Assembly (NCBI GenBank): GCA_946407715.1 | Contig: CAMJPH010000057.1 | Location: forward strand, 1 to 15,924 | Direction of reading: 5' to 3' | DNA length: 15,924 nucleotides | DNA from: an uncultured Bacteroidales bacterium | Lineage (GTDB): Bacteria; Bacteroidota; Bacteroidia; Bacteroidales; WCHB1-69 | Shown here: piece by piece, positions 615 through 15,531 of the stretch | How the letters are laid out: each line of letters opens with the position of its first letter | Position numbering within the stretch: the first letter of the stretch is position 1 | Program-made: the position numbers and the translations under genes | The notes under the pieces: generated by a model | What the model saw: only the letters and a program-made list of their open reading frames with translations | Told to the model about the DNA's origin: nothing | The model's database searches: none

Positions 615-2534
615 ATGTACCTAAAAAACATACACATAGAAAATTACGGTCCCATAGAAAAACTTCAATATTCATGCAAATTTGATGATGAAGGCAAACC
701 ACAACCATTAGTATTAATTGGCAAAAACGGATGTGGAAAAACATTAGTGTTATCAAATATTATCCACAGTCTGATTGAAATGAAGCGAAAACACTATGAT
801 ACTTTAATGGAAGTTTCTGAGAACAATTATTATAGGGTTGGCAGCAAGTCTTATATTAAAGAAGGTGCACAATATGCATATATTAATATTGAATACGCTA
901 ATGGCAAGTCTTATACTGATTTAATGACAAACAATTATTCTTTTTTTAAAGATAATATTTATAAAAGTAATGTTCACCAGCATATAAACATTGACGATGG
1001 TAAGTTGAAAGACTCTGGTTTTTATAATAAAACAGATGAGACAAATAAAGCTGAGATTGACAATCACATTTACTTATATTTTCCAGTTGATCGATACTAT
1101 ACTCCTCAATGGTTCAATAAAGAAAATAAGTCACCACATATTAATATTCATAGAAACTATGTTGGTAGATCAGTTAATAATATGATATGTCACGATTTAT
1201 TATTCAATATTGAATCATGGATTTTAGATGTTATTATGGACCAACTCTTGTATGAAGAAAAAACCGAGTCCATATCTGGTCAAACAGTGAAGATCGGCTA
1301 TGAAGGGAAAAACACTAATATTATATCGAATATTAACCATGTTCTTTCTAAGTTGTTTTATGGAAAATATCCTGGTGTTAGAATAGGCGTTTCGCCCAAA
1401 AACAATAATCAAAGAAATATCTCTATTATAGGGACGGCTGATGATGGTAATATTGAAAAAAAAGTCGTTTCTTCTTTTGCTAATCTATCTTCTGGCGAAG
1501 TGATGATTTTTTCAATCGCTTGTATGATTTTAAAGGAATACGATAGAATAACAAACAATTTTAACTCTAAACTCGAAGACATTTCTGGAATAGTATTAAT
1601 TGATGAAATTGATATCCATCTTCATTCCGACTTTGCAAAGAATATTGCTCCGCAGTTAATTCAACTATTTCCAAGAATTCAATTCATTATTTCTAGCCAT
1701 TCGCCATTCTTCCTACTTGGAATGAATGATCTATTTAAAAACAAATGCCAATTTCTATCATTACACAGCGGAATTCTAATGGAGAACGTCGAACACTTTG
1801 AAGAAATAAGAGATTGTTACAACTTAATAGACGATGGGTATAACAAATTGGAAGAGAGTCTGTCTTTATACAAAGATCGTATTAAAAGTTTAACCAAACC
1901 CCTAATAATAACGGAAGGGAAAACCGATTGGAAACATATTAAAAACGCATTAGTAAGATTCCAAGAACAAGGTGAATTTACTGATCTTGATGTTGAATTC
2001 TATGAATACACATTTGATATGGGAGACCGTTTGCCCAATATCATTTCCAATATTAAAGTTGTTCCAAATAATCACAAAATCATTGCTGTTTTTGATACAG
2101 ACAAAAAAATCGTCAAAGAAGGTGTTCCATATGAGAAAATGGGCAATAATGTTTATCAATGTGCCATACCCGATCCTCATAATTATGGTTGTGGAATATC
2201 TATTGAAATGATGTATCCTGAAGATGATATTAAAAAACTTGATAACAATAATCGACGTTTGTTTCTAACAAATGAATTCTCAACAAGAAGTGGAGCTTTA
2301 TTATCAAACCACTCCATTATTTGCAGAAACAAAACATTAACTGATGCGGAAAAGAATAATCGTGTTAAAATTGTTGACTTTGGTGTGATTGATGTTGAAA
2401 CAGATGAGAACATAGCTCTATCAAAAGAGGATTTTGCGACAAATGTTTTAAATAGAGTTACTCCATTTGACAATGTAAATATTGATGGTTTCCGTTCTTT
2501 ATTTGAAACCATCAGACAAATACTAAACGATTAA
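615..2534 (+). CDS. OLD-like ATP-dependent nuclease: ABC-type ATPase fused to TOPRIM domain
   Basis: A 639-residue protein with an N-terminal SMC/ABC-like ATPase: Walker A GKNGCGKT (36-43), signature LSSGE (291-295), Walker B LIDEID (328-333) and H-loop SSHSP (360-364). A TOPRIM-like domain follows, with TEGKTD (433-438), FDTDK (493-497) and a further acidic SIEMMYP (529-535). This order is that of the overcoming-lysogenization-defect (OLD) nucleases, which cut DNA with the TOPRIM acidic residues. No UvrD-type helicase partner is adjacent, so this is not a Gabija pair. The start is 3 nt after the hsdS stop, and the stop is 4 nt before a copy of the hsdR start, so it sits as an accessory gene inside the type I operon. 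It resembles in principle the ATPase genes embedded in some hsd loci (rlo genes); I infer a phage-defence role. It is strongly AT-rich. Domain call is firm; biological role is inferred. Confidence 0.85.
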   Translation: MYLKNIHIENYGPIEKLQYSCKFDDEGKPQPLVLIGKNGCGKTLVLSNIIHSLIEMKRKHYDTLMEVSENNYYRVGSKSYIKEGAQYAYINIEYANGKSYTDLMTNNYSFFKDNIYKSNVHQHINIDDGKLKDSGFYNKTDETNKAEIDNHIYLYFPVDRYYTPQWFNKENKSPHINIHRNYVGRSVNNMICHDLLFNIESWILDVIMDQLLYEEKTESISGQTVKIGYEGKNTNIISNINHVLSKLFYGKYPGVRIGVSPKNNNQRNISIIGTADDGNIEKKVVSSFANLSSGEVMIFSIACMILKEYDRITNNFNSKLEDISGIVLIDEIDIHLHSDFAKNIAPQLIQLFPRIQFIISSHSPFFLLGMNDLFKNKCQFLSLHSGILMENVEHFEEIRDCYNLIDDGYNKLEESLSLYKDRIKSLTKPLIITEGKTDWKHIKNALVRFQEQGEFTDLDVEFYEYTFDMGDRLPNIISNIKVVPNNHKIIAVFDTDKKIVKEGVPYEKMGNNVYQCAIPDPHNYGCGISIEMMYPEDDIKKLDNNNRRLFLTNEFSTRSGALLSNHSIICRNKTLTDAEKNNRVKIVDFGVIDVETDENIALSKEDFATNVLNRVTPFDNVNIDGFRSLFETIRQILND

Positions 2535-2538
2535 CAGC

Positions 2539-2730
2539 ATGTCCTTCAACGAAATAAACGCAGTAGAAAACTTCGTCATCTCCCTCACCCCCTGGCCCCT
2601 CTCCCAAGTGGAGAGGGGAGTTCAGCGACTCGGTAATCGTTTCATTTCCACGCACACACCATTCTCCTCCCCTTTAGGGGAGGTTGGGAGGGGTAAAATA
2701 TCCGGGAGGGGTAAAAAATCACAACTATGA
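2539..2730 (+). pseudogene. Duplicated hsdR start fused to repeat sequence (63-codon chimeric ORF)
   Basis: The first 14 codons encode MSFNEINAVENFVI, identical in protein to the start of hsdR at 3250. The DNA differs at three third-codon positions (GCA/GCC, GTA/GTC, GAA/GAG). The similarity also covers about 8 nt upstream (TTAACAGC versus TTAACATC), including the OLD gene's stop. After codon 14 the frame enters repeat copy 1 and reads Pro/Arg/Gly-rich sequence of no protein-like character. It ends at TGA 2728-2730, which overlaps the DUF559 ATG (2727) as ATGA. I read it as the stranded start of a former or alternative hsdR. It could still be translated and act as a leader that delivers ribosomes to the DUF559 gene by coupling. 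Confidence 0.7.
2577..2699 (+). repeat. Direct repeat copy 1 flanking the DUF559 gene
   Basis: It starts at CATCTCCCTCACCCC and ends at GGGAGGGGTAAAA, and matches 3096-3220 in order and orientation. It holds a hairpin with stem CCCCTCTCC (2596-2604) and GGAGAGGGG (2610-2618). A second hairpin has stem CCTCCCC (2666-2672) and GGGGAGG (2677-2683) with loop TTTA. The stretch between the hairpins is poorly conserved apart from CTCGGTAA. The GGGAGGGGTAAAA end is partly repeated again just downstream (near 2703-2716). Confidence 0.85.
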
Positions 2731-3197
2731 AACACGACTTCAGCAAGACCAAAATATTCCAAGGTGCCTCGCCAGAGATATTCGCACGGGCAAAAGAGCT
2801 ACGAAAGAATATGACCCCTGCAGAAAAGCTGCTCTGGCAACACCTGCGCAATGACCAACTCAACGGCTATCACTTCCGCCGCCAGCACCCCATCAAGCAG
2901 TTTATCGCCGACTTCTATTGTGCCAAAGCAGACCTGATTATAGAATTGGATGGCGGAATCCACAACAACCCAGATGTGCATGAACGCGACATCAACCGCA
3001 CTGCAGAACTCGAAAATCTCGACATCACCGTCATCCGCTTCACCAACGAAGAAGTATTAAATGATATAAATAACGTAATTGAAAGAATAAAAAAACATCT
3101 CCCTCACCCCCCTGGCCCCTCTCCCAAGTGGATAGGGGAGTCCAATGCCTCGGTAACCGTTCCGAGACATCGCACTCCGTCGTCTCCTCCCCTTTAG
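2727..3197 (+). CDS. DUF559 / Vsr-like PD-(D/E)XK endonuclease
   Basis: A 156-residue protein of the DUF559 family, predicted nucleases related to very-short-patch-repair enzymes. The hallmark order is present: AKELRKNMTPAEKLLWQHLR (about 21-41), GYHFRRQHPI (47-56), ADFYC with D62, IIELDGGIH with E73 and D75, then ERD..R and VIRFTNEEVLND (102-113). The family core ends near residue 123. The remaining ~33 residues (HPPGPSPKW onward) are read from repeat copy 2, and the TAG stop lies in its CCTCCCCTTTAGGGGAGG hairpin. So the native protein may once have ended elsewhere, or the tail is tolerated. The start is chosen at 2727 because the core begins soon after and it overlaps the upstream ORF stop (ATGA). 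It is flanked by direct repeats, which suggests the gene travels with them. No biochemical target is known to me. Confidence 0.88.
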   Translation: MKHDFSKTKIFQGASPEIFARAKELRKNMTPAEKLLWQHLRNDQLNGYHFRRQHPIKQFIADFYCAKADLIIELDGGIHNNPDVHERDINRTAELENLDITVIRFTNEEVLNDINNVIERIKKHLPHPPGPSPKWIGESNASVTVPRHRTPSSPPL

Positions 3198-3220
3198 GGG
3201 AGGCTGGGAGGGGTAAAAAA
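3096..3220 (+). repeat. Direct repeat copy 2 flanking the DUF559 gene
   Basis: Matches 2577-2699: CATCTCCCTCACCCC, the CCCCTCTCCCAAGTGGA block, CTCGGTAA, and the CCTCCCCTTTAGGGGAGG hairpin followed by GGGAGGGGTAAAA. The first hairpin is damaged here (GGATAGGGG in place of GGAGAGGGG). One C is inserted in the C-run near the start. The left part encodes the C-terminal tail and stop codon of the DUF559 protein. Thirty bases after its end the hsdR start codon follows. Confidence 0.85.
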
Positions 3221-3249
3221 GCCGAGAGAAATATTAAAAACTTAACATC

Positions 3250-6210
3250 ATGTCCTTCAACGAAATAAACGCCGTCGAGAACTTCGTCATCCATACGATG
3301 ACAGGAGTGAACTTGAATGAGACCAGCATAGCGCACGAAGCGCAGGCGCCTTACGGGGCGCAGTGGGAGTACCTGCCCGCCACGGAGCTGCCGCGCGAGG
3401 TTACCGAGGTGATGGTGGAAACGGAAGTGAAAAAGGCCCTTGTCCGCCTCAACCCCGAGATTGCCGCACAGCCCGAACGCGCCGACGAGGTCATCTTCAA
3501 GCTGCGTTCCATCCTGCTGTCGGTCCACAGCACTGGCCTCGTGCGCGCCAACGAGGAGTTCGCCGAGTGGCTCAAAGGCAACAAGACCATGCCTTTCGGC
3601 AAGAACTACGCCCACGTGCCCGTCCGCCTCATAGACTTCGAGCATATCGCCAACAACAAGTTCCAGTTGGTCAACCAGTTCAGCATCCGCAACCGCGAGA
3701 CCAAACGCCCCGACATCGTGCTGTTTGTCAACGGCTTCCCCTTGGTGGTGGGCGAGACCAAAACGCCCGTGCGGCCTTCTGTCTCATGGCTCGATGCCGC
3801 CTCCGACATCCACGACGGCTACGAGAACAGCGTGCCCGAACTCTTTGTGCCCAACGTGTTCAGCTTCGCCACCGAAGGACGCGAACTGTTCTACGGTGCC
3901 GTGCGCACGCCTTTGGAGTTCTGGTCGGCCTGGCGGCTCAACGAAGGCAGCGAGGATTCGGAAATGCCCGGCTTGGAGAACGTCTCCGCCGAAATGCGGC
4001 AGCTGCTGTCGCCCAAAACCTTGCTCGACATTCTCTACAACTTCACCACCTACACCACCAACAAGAGCCGTCAGCGCATCAAGGTGGTGTGCCGCTACCA
4101 GCAATACGAAGGCGCCAACAAGATTGTGGAACGCGTGCTGGAAAACAAGATCAAACGCGGCCTGATATGGCACTTCCAAGGCTCCGGCAAGTCGCTGCTG
4201 ATGCTCTTTGCCGCACAGAAGATGCGCCGTATGCCCGAGCTGAAAAGCCCCACGGTGATGATTGTGGTCGATCGCATCGACTTGGACTCGCAGACACAGA
4301 ACGTCTTCAAGGAGGCACCCAATGTGATGCCCACCGAGGACATCGACACGCTGAACAAATTCTTGGAGAACGACGCCCGCTATATCATCATCACCACCAT
4401 CTTTAAGTTCAAGGACGCCAAGCCCAACATCAACCGCCGCGACAACATCATCGTGATGGTGGATGAGGCGCACCGCACGCAGGAGGGCGACCTCGGTCAG
4501 CGTATGCGCGCCGCCTTGCCCAACGCCTTCTTCTTCGGCCTCACGGGAACGCCCATCAACAAGTCGGAGCACAACACCTTCTGGACTTTCGGTGCGTTGG
4601 AGGACCAAGGCGGTTACATGAGCCGATACTCGTTTGAAGACGCTTTGCGCGACAATACCATCTTGCCGCTGCACTTCGAGCCGCGCCTGTTGGACATCCA
4701 CATCGACCGCGACGCCGTGGACGAGGAGTTTGAACGCCTCTCCAACGAGCTGGACGAGGATGCCAAAATCACCTTGAGCAGCAAGGCCGCCAAGATGCTG
4801 GAGTTTTTGAAATCGCCCGAACGCATCCAGATTGTCTGCAAAGATATTGCCGAGCATTACCGCAACAAGGTGGAGCCGCAAGGTTTCAAGGCGATGATTG
4901 TCACGCCCGACCGCGAGGCCTGCCATCTCTACAAGATGGAGCTGAATAATTACTTCCCCGATTCCGCCTCGGCGGTGGTCATCTCCACCTCGGGCAAAGG
5001 CGAGGATGAGCTGAAACGGCTCTACAGCCTCACCAAAGACGAGCAGGAGAAGGTGATTGAGAAATTCAACAAGCCCGATTCCGAACTCAAGTTTTTGATT
5101 GTCACCGCCAAACTGCTCACGGGTTTCGACTCGCCCATCTTGCAGACCATGTATTTGGACAAATCGCTGAAAGACCACACTTTGCTGCAGGCCATCTGCC
5201 GCACCAACCGCAAGTTCCCCAACAAGACCTTCGGTCGCATTGTGGATTACTTCGGTGTGTTCGACGATGCCGCCAAGGCATTGGAGTTCGACGAGGATGT
5301 GATGAAGAAAGTCATCACCAACCTCAATGATCTAATCAACGAGCTGCCGCAAGCCATGGCCGACACACTGTCGCATTTCGAAGGCGTTGACCGCACCGTT
5401 GACGGCTTCGACGGTCTGCAGGCCGCGCAGGAAGCCATCAACACCAACGAAAAACGCGATGCTTTTGCCGCCGACTATCGCCGTTTGTCCAATATCTGGG
5501 AGTCGCTTTCTCCAGACCCCGCCTTGGAACCCTACCGTTTGGATTACAAATGGCTGTCGAGTGTCTATCAGTCCGTCAAACCCTCCGGTCCCGATGCCTT
5601 GGGCAAGCTGATTTGGCTCTCGTTGGGTGCCCAGACCAAGAAAATCATGTACGAGAACATTCACGTATCGGGCATCCACACCGATATGGAAGAGGTGATT
5701 TTGGATGAAACCATGGTTTCGGCGTTGATGGGCAACAAGGATATGAAAGCCGCCAAGAAGATGGAGCGTGAACTCATCAAGCGGTTTAAGAAACACGCCG
5801 ACAAACCCAAGTTTATCGAATTGAGCAAACGCTTGGAAGCCCTGCGTGACAAAGCCGAACAAGGCCTGATTTCGAGCATCGAGTTCATCAAGGAGCTCTG
5901 CCAGATTGCCCGAGAAACCTTGCAAGCCGAAAAGCAGGAAGCCGAGGTGGAAGTACGCAAAACCGGCAAGGAAGCCTTAACGGAGCTGTTTTTGGAACTC
6001 CGTACCGAAGACACACCCGCCGTCGTTGGCCGCATCGTAGCCGACATCGACAGCATCGTGAAAGTGGTGCGTTTCCCCGGCTGGCAGACCACCAACGCTG
6101 GCGAACGCGAGGTGCAGAAAGCCTTGCGCAAAACCCTGTTGAAGTATAAGTTACACAAGGAGGAGGCGTTGTTCCAGAAGGCGTATATGTATATCAGGGA
6201 GTATTACTAA
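3250..6210 (+). CDS. hsdR: Type I restriction enzyme endonuclease/translocase subunit HsdR
   Basis: A 986-residue protein, normal for HsdR. It is the ATP-driven translocase and nuclease of the type I complex, pulling in DNA from unmethylated sites and cutting at a distance. The N-terminal nuclease has the PD-(D/E)XK pattern: RPDIVLFV (D155) and GETKTP (E169, K171). The superfamily 2 motor shows HFQGSGKS (308-315, a Walker A variant usual for HsdR), DEAHRT (405-410), LTGTPI (431-436), TAKLLTGFDSP, and LLQAICRTNRKF near 655. The C-terminal helical part is complete to the TAA. The start MSFNEINAVENF matches the duplicated fragment at 2539, supporting 3250 as the true start. Base composition and codon use are GC-rich, in sharp contrast to hsdS and the OLD-like gene upstream. 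It looks intact and functional. Confidence 0.97.
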   Translation: MSFNEINAVENFVIHTMTGVNLNETSIAHEAQAPYGAQWEYLPATELPREVTEVMVETEVKKALVRLNPEIAAQPERADEVIFKLRSILLSVHSTGLVRANEEFAEWLKGNKTMPFGKNYAHVPVRLIDFEHIANNKFQLVNQFSIRNRETKRPDIVLFVNGFPLVVGETKTPVRPSVSWLDAASDIHDGYENSVPELFVPNVFSFATEGRELFYGAVRTPLEFWSAWRLNEGSEDSEMPGLENVSAEMRQLLSPKTLLDILYNFTTYTTNKSRQRIKVVCRYQQYEGANKIVERVLENKIKRGLIWHFQGSGKSLLMLFAAQKMRRMPELKSPTVMIVVDRIDLDSQTQNVFKEAPNVMPTEDIDTLNKFLENDARYIIITTIFKFKDAKPNINRRDNIIVMVDEAHRTQEGDLGQRMRAALPNAFFFGLTGTPINKSEHNTFWTFGALEDQGGYMSRYSFEDALRDNTILPLHFEPRLLDIHIDRDAVDEEFERLSNELDEDAKITLSSKAAKMLEFLKSPERIQIVCKDIAEHYRNKVEPQGFKAMIVTPDREACHLYKMELNNYFPDSASAVVISTSGKGEDELKRLYSLTKDEQEKVIEKFNKPDSELKFLIVTAKLLTGFDSPILQTMYLDKSLKDHTLLQAICRTNRKFPNKTFGRIVDYFGVFDDAAKALEFDEDVMKKVITNLNDLINELPQAMADTLSHFEGVDRTVDGFDGLQAAQEAINTNEKRDAFAADYRRLSNIWESLSPDPALEPYRLDYKWLSSVYQSVKPSGPDALGKLIWLSLGAQTKKIMYENIHVSGIHTDMEEVILDETMVSALMGNKDMKAAKKMERELIKRFKKHADKPKFIELSKRLEALRDKAEQGLISSIEFIKELCQIARETLQAEKQEAEVEVRKTGKEALTELFLELRTEDTPAVVGRIVADIDSIVKVVRFPGWQTTNAGEREVQKALRKTLLKYKLHKEEALFQKAYMYIREYY

Positions 6211-15144: not shown

Positions 15145-15531
15145 TGTCCCGAAGGGACAACAGCTCGGTAGGACGGCGTGCATTCCGATTACCAAAGACC
15201 CCGGAGGGGTCAAAGCTCGGTAGGAGGCAACGTTCCCCGCTTGTCACAGACCCCGATAGGGGGCAAAGCTCGGTAGAACGGTGCGAATCCCGTTTTCCAG
15301 AGACCCCGGAGGGGTCAAAGCTCGGTAGGAGGCAACGTTCCCCGCTTGTCACAGACCCCGATAGGGGGCAAAGCTCGGTAGGACGGTGTGCATCTCGATT
15401 ACCAAAGACCCCAGCAGAGGTCAAAGCTCGGTAGGAGGCAACGTTCCCCGCTTGCCACAGACCCCGATAGGGGGCAAAGCTCGGTAGATGAGACGTTTCC
15501 CGCGTTTACCCAAGCCCCGGCAGGGGCGACA
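15145..15531. repeat. Tandem hairpin array with alternating units, 52/53-bp period
   Basis: The core GCTCGGTAG occurs at 15163, 15215, 15268, 15320, 15373, 15426 and 15479, a spacing of 52 or 53 bp throughout. Each core follows a short hairpin such as GACCCC-GGA-GGGGTC (15197-15211). Two unit types alternate: one continues GGAGGCAACGTTCCCCGCTT, the other GACGGTGTGCATCTCGATT or close variants, so the true period is 105 bp. The ends are decayed (TGTCCC-GAA-GGGACA at 15145; GCCCC-GGCA-GGGGC at 15514). Because 105 is a multiple of 3, long spurious reading frames appear on both strands. Confidence 0.88.

Follow-up and report, generated by a model that had tools for sequence, protein, structure and literature searches.

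The doubled hsdR start in this Bacteroidales contig is a real and recurrent feature, best read as a trace of the stacking of defence modules and not as a nuclease-specific insertion. Throughout the text, the window is the full 15,924-nt stretch, while L-, G- and C-numbers stand for compared loci, genomes and contigs, respectively. It seems probable to us that the upstream copy is a stacking scar at a defence slot located between hsdS and hsdR, in which modules are swapped through two homology ends, namely the hsdS tail and the hsdR start.

The features of the window considered here all lie on the + strand. At its beginning we found the 3' part of hsdS (3–611; Pfam Methylase_S, E 1.8e-6), whose conserved 3' tail, at approximately 574–611 (tail match at 574–602, one mismatch), would bound the slot on the left as one of its two homology ends. 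It is followed by a first cargo module (615–2534), an AAA ATPase of 639 aa (AAA_21, E 5.4e-11) with a C-terminal part resembling a Toprim-bearing defence protein, its residues 393–638 matching PADLOC PtuA (2.1e-30) and RT-Toprim_I-C (6.5e-29). The scar, in which the first 42 nt of hsdR are found a second time, occupies positions 2539–2580 and abuts the left hairpin-bearing repeat (direct repeat D1, 2581–2708) at the junction GTCATC/TCCCTCACC. Then comes a DUF559 nuclease-like gene (2727–3197; PF04480, E 1.6e-37, domain at residues 20–125; nearest solved chain PDB 3hrl, E 4.5e-22), whose ORF extends into the right hairpin-bearing repeat (3101–3228, placed from the repeat finder and the lead and hairpin positions), and finally an intact hsdR of 986 aa (3250–6210; TIGR00348, E 1.9e-160), the first 42 nt of which are best read as the right homology end. 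Between the two starts there is a 121-nt direct repeat with 81% identity (2588–2708 and 3108–3228). The G+C content along the series is 30.7% for the AAA gene, 45.7% for the DUF559 gene, 57.8 and 62.5% for the repeats and 55.8% for hsdR.

The initial annotation had described a doubled hsdR start around a DUF559-repeat cassette, and this is borne out by direct comparison, with 46 of 50 bases identical between 2531–2580 and 3242–3291. Counted from the ATG the figure is 39 of 42 (2539–2580 against 3250–3291), both copies being translated to MSFNEINAVENFVI with all three base changes synonymous, and the repeat finder extends the duplication to 67 nt at 87% identity. The idea that a divergent hsdR allele was joined here gains support from these three synonymous sites, which vary among hsdR alleles; the upstream copy in the window is identical to the first 42 nt of the real hsdR of L001. 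That a working hsdR start was left downstream also agrees with the intact gene found.

A chance origin of the start copies was rejected, given that a 21-base start pattern (≤1 mismatch) produced eight matches in five of the 104 family genomes, all of them at hsdR loci, and that shuffled controls (six loci, five single-base shuffles each) gave no start or tail match. An assembly fault or chimera also appears unlikely, because the same junctions recur in independent assemblies: GTCATC/TCCCTCACC is identical in the window, L001 and L006 (three assemblies, in each of which a different gene lies upstream), and L004, L005 and L024 have a second junction in common. In agreement with the initial annotation, a transposon target-site duplication was discarded, since the copies are not identical and their lengths vary with the cargo; over 42 nt the copies differ at three positions in the window, two in L001 and none in L006. 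A search for the start in viral contigs gave no matches, and a wider degenerate pattern matched four of the 393 genomes of the order, G085 and G168 among them (L075 of G375, a match to the degenerate pattern that resembles L016, was left out of the counts).

The genome scan provided 24 loci; in 21 of them, all from Bacteroidota, an hsdR start can be seen, and many of these 21 are ruminant-derived judging by their record titles. Complete intervals between hsdS and hsdR were available for 19 (the window, L001–L007, L009–L013, L015–L017, L020, L023 and L024), as L018 and L019 have no start and L008, L014 and L022 no complete interval; the distant hsdR of L021 (52%) was included in the start scan and excluded from the family count. 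Genes are present between hsdS and hsdR in all 19, with hsdS confirmed by Pfam in 18 and by its tail only in L006. Among them we found non-hsd defence genes of many kinds, i.e., Septu, Hachiman, Kiwa, SIR2-HerA, an AriA-like ATPase with DUF4435 (PARIS-like), OLD/Gabija-like genes, putAbiC, Mrr and TIR proteins; much of the scanned cargo matched defence families, and several proteins had no match at all. Measured in 17 loci (L001 via its upstream start copy), the distance from the cargo end to the hsdR ATG is between -2 and 12 nt. By its gene content, the hsdS–hsdR interval is a slot for predicted anti-phage genes in related Bacteroidales. In L012, the place of defence genes (2683–3773) is taken by a pair of 153-aa genes whose products agree in their first 40 and last 25 residues; the first of the pair codes for an IS200-like Y1 transposase. 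The hsdR frames of L022 (518 aa) and L023 (455 aa) end early, by either decay or sequence error.

Scanning 23 sequences for the start (20 nt, ≤5 mismatches) revealed upstream copies in six, the window, L001, L005, L006, L015 and L024, together with a decayed copy in L004 that has lost its ATG. Including the latter, seven of the 19 complete intervals carry a start copy and none was counted in the other 12, although L007 has a possible decayed one. L001 shows the order start, one repeat, start, with no DUF559 gene, and L006 the order start, repeats, DUF559, repeat, start, behind a different upstream gene from that of the window; among the seven scarred family loci, only the window and L006 have DUF559 in the slot. 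In the rest, the cargo found after the start copy is an OLD/Gabija-like ATPase (L005), a nucleotidyltransferase-TIR protein (L015) or Kiwa KwaAB (L024). The hsdS 3' tail comes directly after the start copy in L004, L005 and L024, forming a linker between cargo modules, and the layout of these loci is hsdS, module, hsdR start/hsdS tail, module, hsdR. Apparent decayed tails were seen by eye in L007, L015 and L022, and the DUF559 junction of the window has no hsdS tail. The three linkers have ACAAACAAA in common and are flanked by different modules on both sides. Because ACAAACAAA is lacking in all 17 resident tails of hsdS that were compared, as well as in those of L005 and L024, this linker probably spread as one unit. 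Judging by eye from the ORF content, L016 resembles a single-module version of the left part of L005, and L011 that of L024.

TIGR00348 is found in at least 133 of 198 genomes of the order, and we have fetched 100 loci of other hsdR genes, of which 11 were unusable and 89 were analysed. A start repeat scoring ≥18 appeared in five of the 89, or four after setting L156 aside as low complexity, against 11 of 408 other ORF starts in the same loci, most of these control matches being put down, by eye, to paralogy, low complexity or additional copies of hsdS. The counts alone are therefore modest when compared to the control, and the argument rests on the anatomy. The duplications measure 50 nt in L079, 66 nt in L089 (at the ATG), 29 nt in L090 (at the ATG) and 77 nt in L149 (G001:C12), the last one with 28 nt before the ATG and located 4.1 kb upstream, and these four loci also have the fragment of the displaced conserved gene beside the older module, as seen in the family of the window. 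The linker of L090 comprises 29 nt of the hsdR start, 3 nt and 69 nt like its own hsdS 3' end (two mismatches); from this composition, it is the same linker type in a different hsdR subfamily. DUF559 was absent from the 11 proteins scanned at the four loci (one of which precedes the L090 scar), where AbiEii-like, DUF3800, AAA with RloB, and PDDEXK with AAA proteins are found. In addition, by eye, the hsdS end (GGTTCAGAyAAATGA) is repeated just ahead of the start scar of L090 (about 3700–4200), and the first cargo of this locus may itself be flanked by hsdS-end copies. On the reverse strand of L079 (3009–6901), upstream of hsdS and the scar, a Schlafen AlbA_2 gene separates two N6_Mtase (hsdM-type) genes. 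G001, the genome nearest to the window among those compared, has in L149 another hsdR locus, dissimilar to its first and scarred in its own right.

Versions with a single start are also present. L002 and L009 have the AAA gene of the window followed, 4 nt on, by one hsdR start, and L020, with the same Septu pair, is the single-start counterpart of L001. Identity between L002 and L009 is 94.6% for the cargo versus 81.4% for hsdR, and between L001 and L020 99.2% versus 93.2%. Along the L002/L009 pair, identity is 38–52% over most of hsdS, then 80–100% from the hsdS tail and mostly >90% in the cargo, with a dip to 68–88% near 3242–3442, and is 66–88% over most of the 500 nt past the hsdR start; this cargo looks like a cassette swapped at its two ends. 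For distant pairs, codons 1–6 of hsdR are the most conserved 6-codon window at third positions (0.93; median 0.56), and among 13-codon windows the hsdR start ranks third, in a codon alignment of 19 sequences from which L022 and L023 were dropped (early frame ends) and L016 was left out (contig end). This conservation fits homogenisation, and it could also fit a translation-start constraint.

Scars, linkers, scar-free versions and a cargo identity bounded at both ends are features of the sequences themselves, and the explanation that we propose for them is one of exchange. Cassettes between hsdS and hsdR would be exchanged by recombination, presumably of the RecA type, using the hsdS 3' tail and the hsdR 5' start as homology ends, and the usual outcome would be the replacement of one module by another. 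Occasionally, the right end of an incoming module would bear an hsdR start of its own. If this module were attached within the hsdR start already present, by a short illegitimate join or through microhomology, plus homology in hsdR, the old start would be left as a scar of 27–66 bp and the new one would serve the gene; a module that also came with its hsdS tail would turn the scar into a linker of hsdR start and hsdS tail. The direct copies of the hsdR start flanking a scarred module would then allow its later moves via ordinary homologous recombination, and scars acting as homology in this way would explain the presence of one junction between different gene pairs. In the case of the window, the module would be the DUF559 gene in its hairpin repeats. 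This order of events, and any advantage of stacking, are inferred. The short lengths of the scars speak against the stacking reading, as a random join does not account for them, and so do the missing hsdS tail at the DUF559 junction and the 12 of 19 intervals with no counted start copy.

As an alternative to the joined allele, the initial annotation had seen the nuclease-repeat unit as the agent of a homing-like insertion; here, cleavage of the hsdR start by the DUF559 nuclease would be followed by the copying in of the unit flanked by repeats, together with a replacement start. The presence of DUF559 with repeats at the hsdR start in the window, L006 and probably L014 is in line with this, as are the single junction in three contexts, the nuclease-like nature of DUF559 and the preservation of an intact hsdR. 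The case of L014 relies on similar repeats before hsdR and on contig-end codons for VIERIRKEL, compared with VIERIKKHL at the DUF559 C-terminus, in a visible stretch too short to give a Pfam match. However, start copies without a nuclease occur in L001 (repeat only), L004 (decayed), L005, L015, L024, L079, L089, L090 and L149, and five of the seven scarred family loci have no DUF559 gene. Two starts with an unbroken hsdR and no nuclease cassette, the very situation that the initial annotation had named beforehand as contrary to its proposal, are thus found in related loci. Repeats and a duplicated host start accompany the DUF559 gene in the window and L006, and its close relatives at L033 and L034 have the same repeat type and no host duplication; in the repeat list of the DUF559 loci, checked by eye, the only duplicated host gene start was the hsdR case of L035 (the DUF559 copy of L006). 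Scar-based recombination yields an identical pattern, and nuclease-driven homing is both unnecessary and, in our opinion, improbable.

A rather unlikely origin is the fusion by deletion of tandem complete type I loci, the first hsdR start being joined into the second hsdS end with both cargos kept. A linker of hsdR start and hsdS tail is exactly the join expected from such an event, and the scarred L079 contains a pair of successive hsdM-type genes, which gives more weight to this origin and less to stacking; by itself, however, the deletion does not account for one linker between three different cargo pairs, leaves the scars without hsdS tail unexplained, and no complete tandem loci were seen in a set in which most loci were read only 4 to 6.5 kb upstream. 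We regard as very improbable the action of a dedicated site-specific recombinase with the hsdR start as attachment site. The short and bounded scars and the synonymous-site conservation of the first six hsdR codons would suit it, but scar ends vary from 27 to 66 nt, and none of the 36 PF00589 matches (tyrosine type only) in eight genomes shares a contig with an hsdR locus considered. An integrase-borne cassette was rejected on the same absence of PF00589 matches (tyrosine recombinases) from the eight hsdR contigs considered; contig C12 of G001, which carries L149, has an integrase about 290 kb away. Finally, we give hardly any credence to the idea that the upstream start is retained because it acts on the cargo behind it, as a leader peptide or as a signal for translation. 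There are short scar ORFs such as MSFNEINAV in L005 and MSFNEINAVEKQTNKYV in L015, and that of the window (2539–2730) shares 4 nt with the start of the DUF559 gene, an overlap compatible with coupling; against this, the L004 copy has no ATG, the possible copy in L007 is decayed, and the scar ORFs range from nine residues (L005) to about 100 (L006) in the six loci translated.

The slot as such was already known, going by the passages of the papers cited here. In E. coli, DarTG2 lies between hsdS and hsdR at a site termed a potential recombination hotspot (PMC12255303), and that locus is like ours in having defence genes in the same interval; unlike it, the family of the window has start scars and hsdR-start/hsdS-tail linkers, of which the passages seen of that paper describe none. 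TgvAB within a Vibrio type I locus (PMC11411939) and the rlo genes in type I loci of Campylobacter (PMC2610378, citing Miller 2005) likewise belong to the accessory defence genes that vary within type I loci, as far as excerpts of these papers tell. An hsdR relic beside rloC is reported as well (PMC2610378), but in the part of the source seen it sits in an IS4-family transposon setting in Geobacillus, with no serial scar at a stacked-cargo junction. Older modules that stay beside new ones are, from the extracts at hand, known in rhs loci, where orphan modules are retained next to a piece of the conserved gene that was displaced (PMC3967940), and in the T6SS orphan immunity arrays of Vibrio cholerae, for which homologous and homology-facilitated illegitimate recombination have been invoked (PMC8189183). 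These excerpts concern toxin-immunity loci, whereas here the fragments come from the ends of two restriction genes, and each module is a defence system in its own right. Judging by titles, abstract openings and passages of the literature, we found no earlier description of hsdR-start scars or linkers.

Scars and linkers bear on the assembly of defence systems into islands and on their exchange. They record single additions, with their likely order (older modules by hsdS, newer by hsdR) and the exact join points, and stacking thus becomes testable from sequence alone. It is possible, if somewhat short of probable, that the type I loci of Bacteroidales are an integrase-free platform and the linker a reusable junction for stacking and swapping defence systems, with hsdR restored each time. 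If so, with the hsdS tail and the hsdR start as shared ends, ordinary recombination would be enough to stack, insert and swap unrelated defence systems in a way akin to a cassette array. The boundary motifs also offer a way to new defence modules, to be sought between the hsdS tail or linker and the hsdR start.

The DUF559 gene and its repeats have a distribution of their own. PF04480 matches are present in 15 of the 20 genomes of the genus, and a perfect GC-rich hairpin was found in both 200-nt flanks of nine of the 16 evaluable DUF559 genes (two of 18 loci being cut by contig ends) versus one of 409 control ORFs, the copy of L006 passing on one flank only. Hairpin repeats flank the DUF559 gene in most copies, and the nuclease plus hairpins is a recurring unit, possibly a REP-like unit with a nuclease. 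REP/RAYT elements have a nuclease-type gene between hairpin repeats; the DUF559 gene is placed likewise but is no Y1 transposase, and its mobility is putative. The exact hairpin occurs at four places, all hsdR loci, in six genomes searched, and G007, which was not among them, has it beside a DUF559 gene (L033). The hairpins of the DUF559 loci (L033–L060) come in two arrangements, an inverted one, seen in one group as CCCCTTCT...AGAAGGGG with GGGGTAGTAATAT, and a direct one, seen in the group of the window. L041 and L044 also contain direct repeats, which in L044 are 52 nt long and 1.8 kb apart (1216–1267 and 3029–3080) with a DUF559 fragment between them; the long repeat matches at L039 and L042 are contig-end artefacts. 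Hairpins of the CCCCGATAGGGG type are also found further along the window, at 15154–15526, in a tandem array with 3.2 copies of a 105-base unit (alternatively, units of 53).
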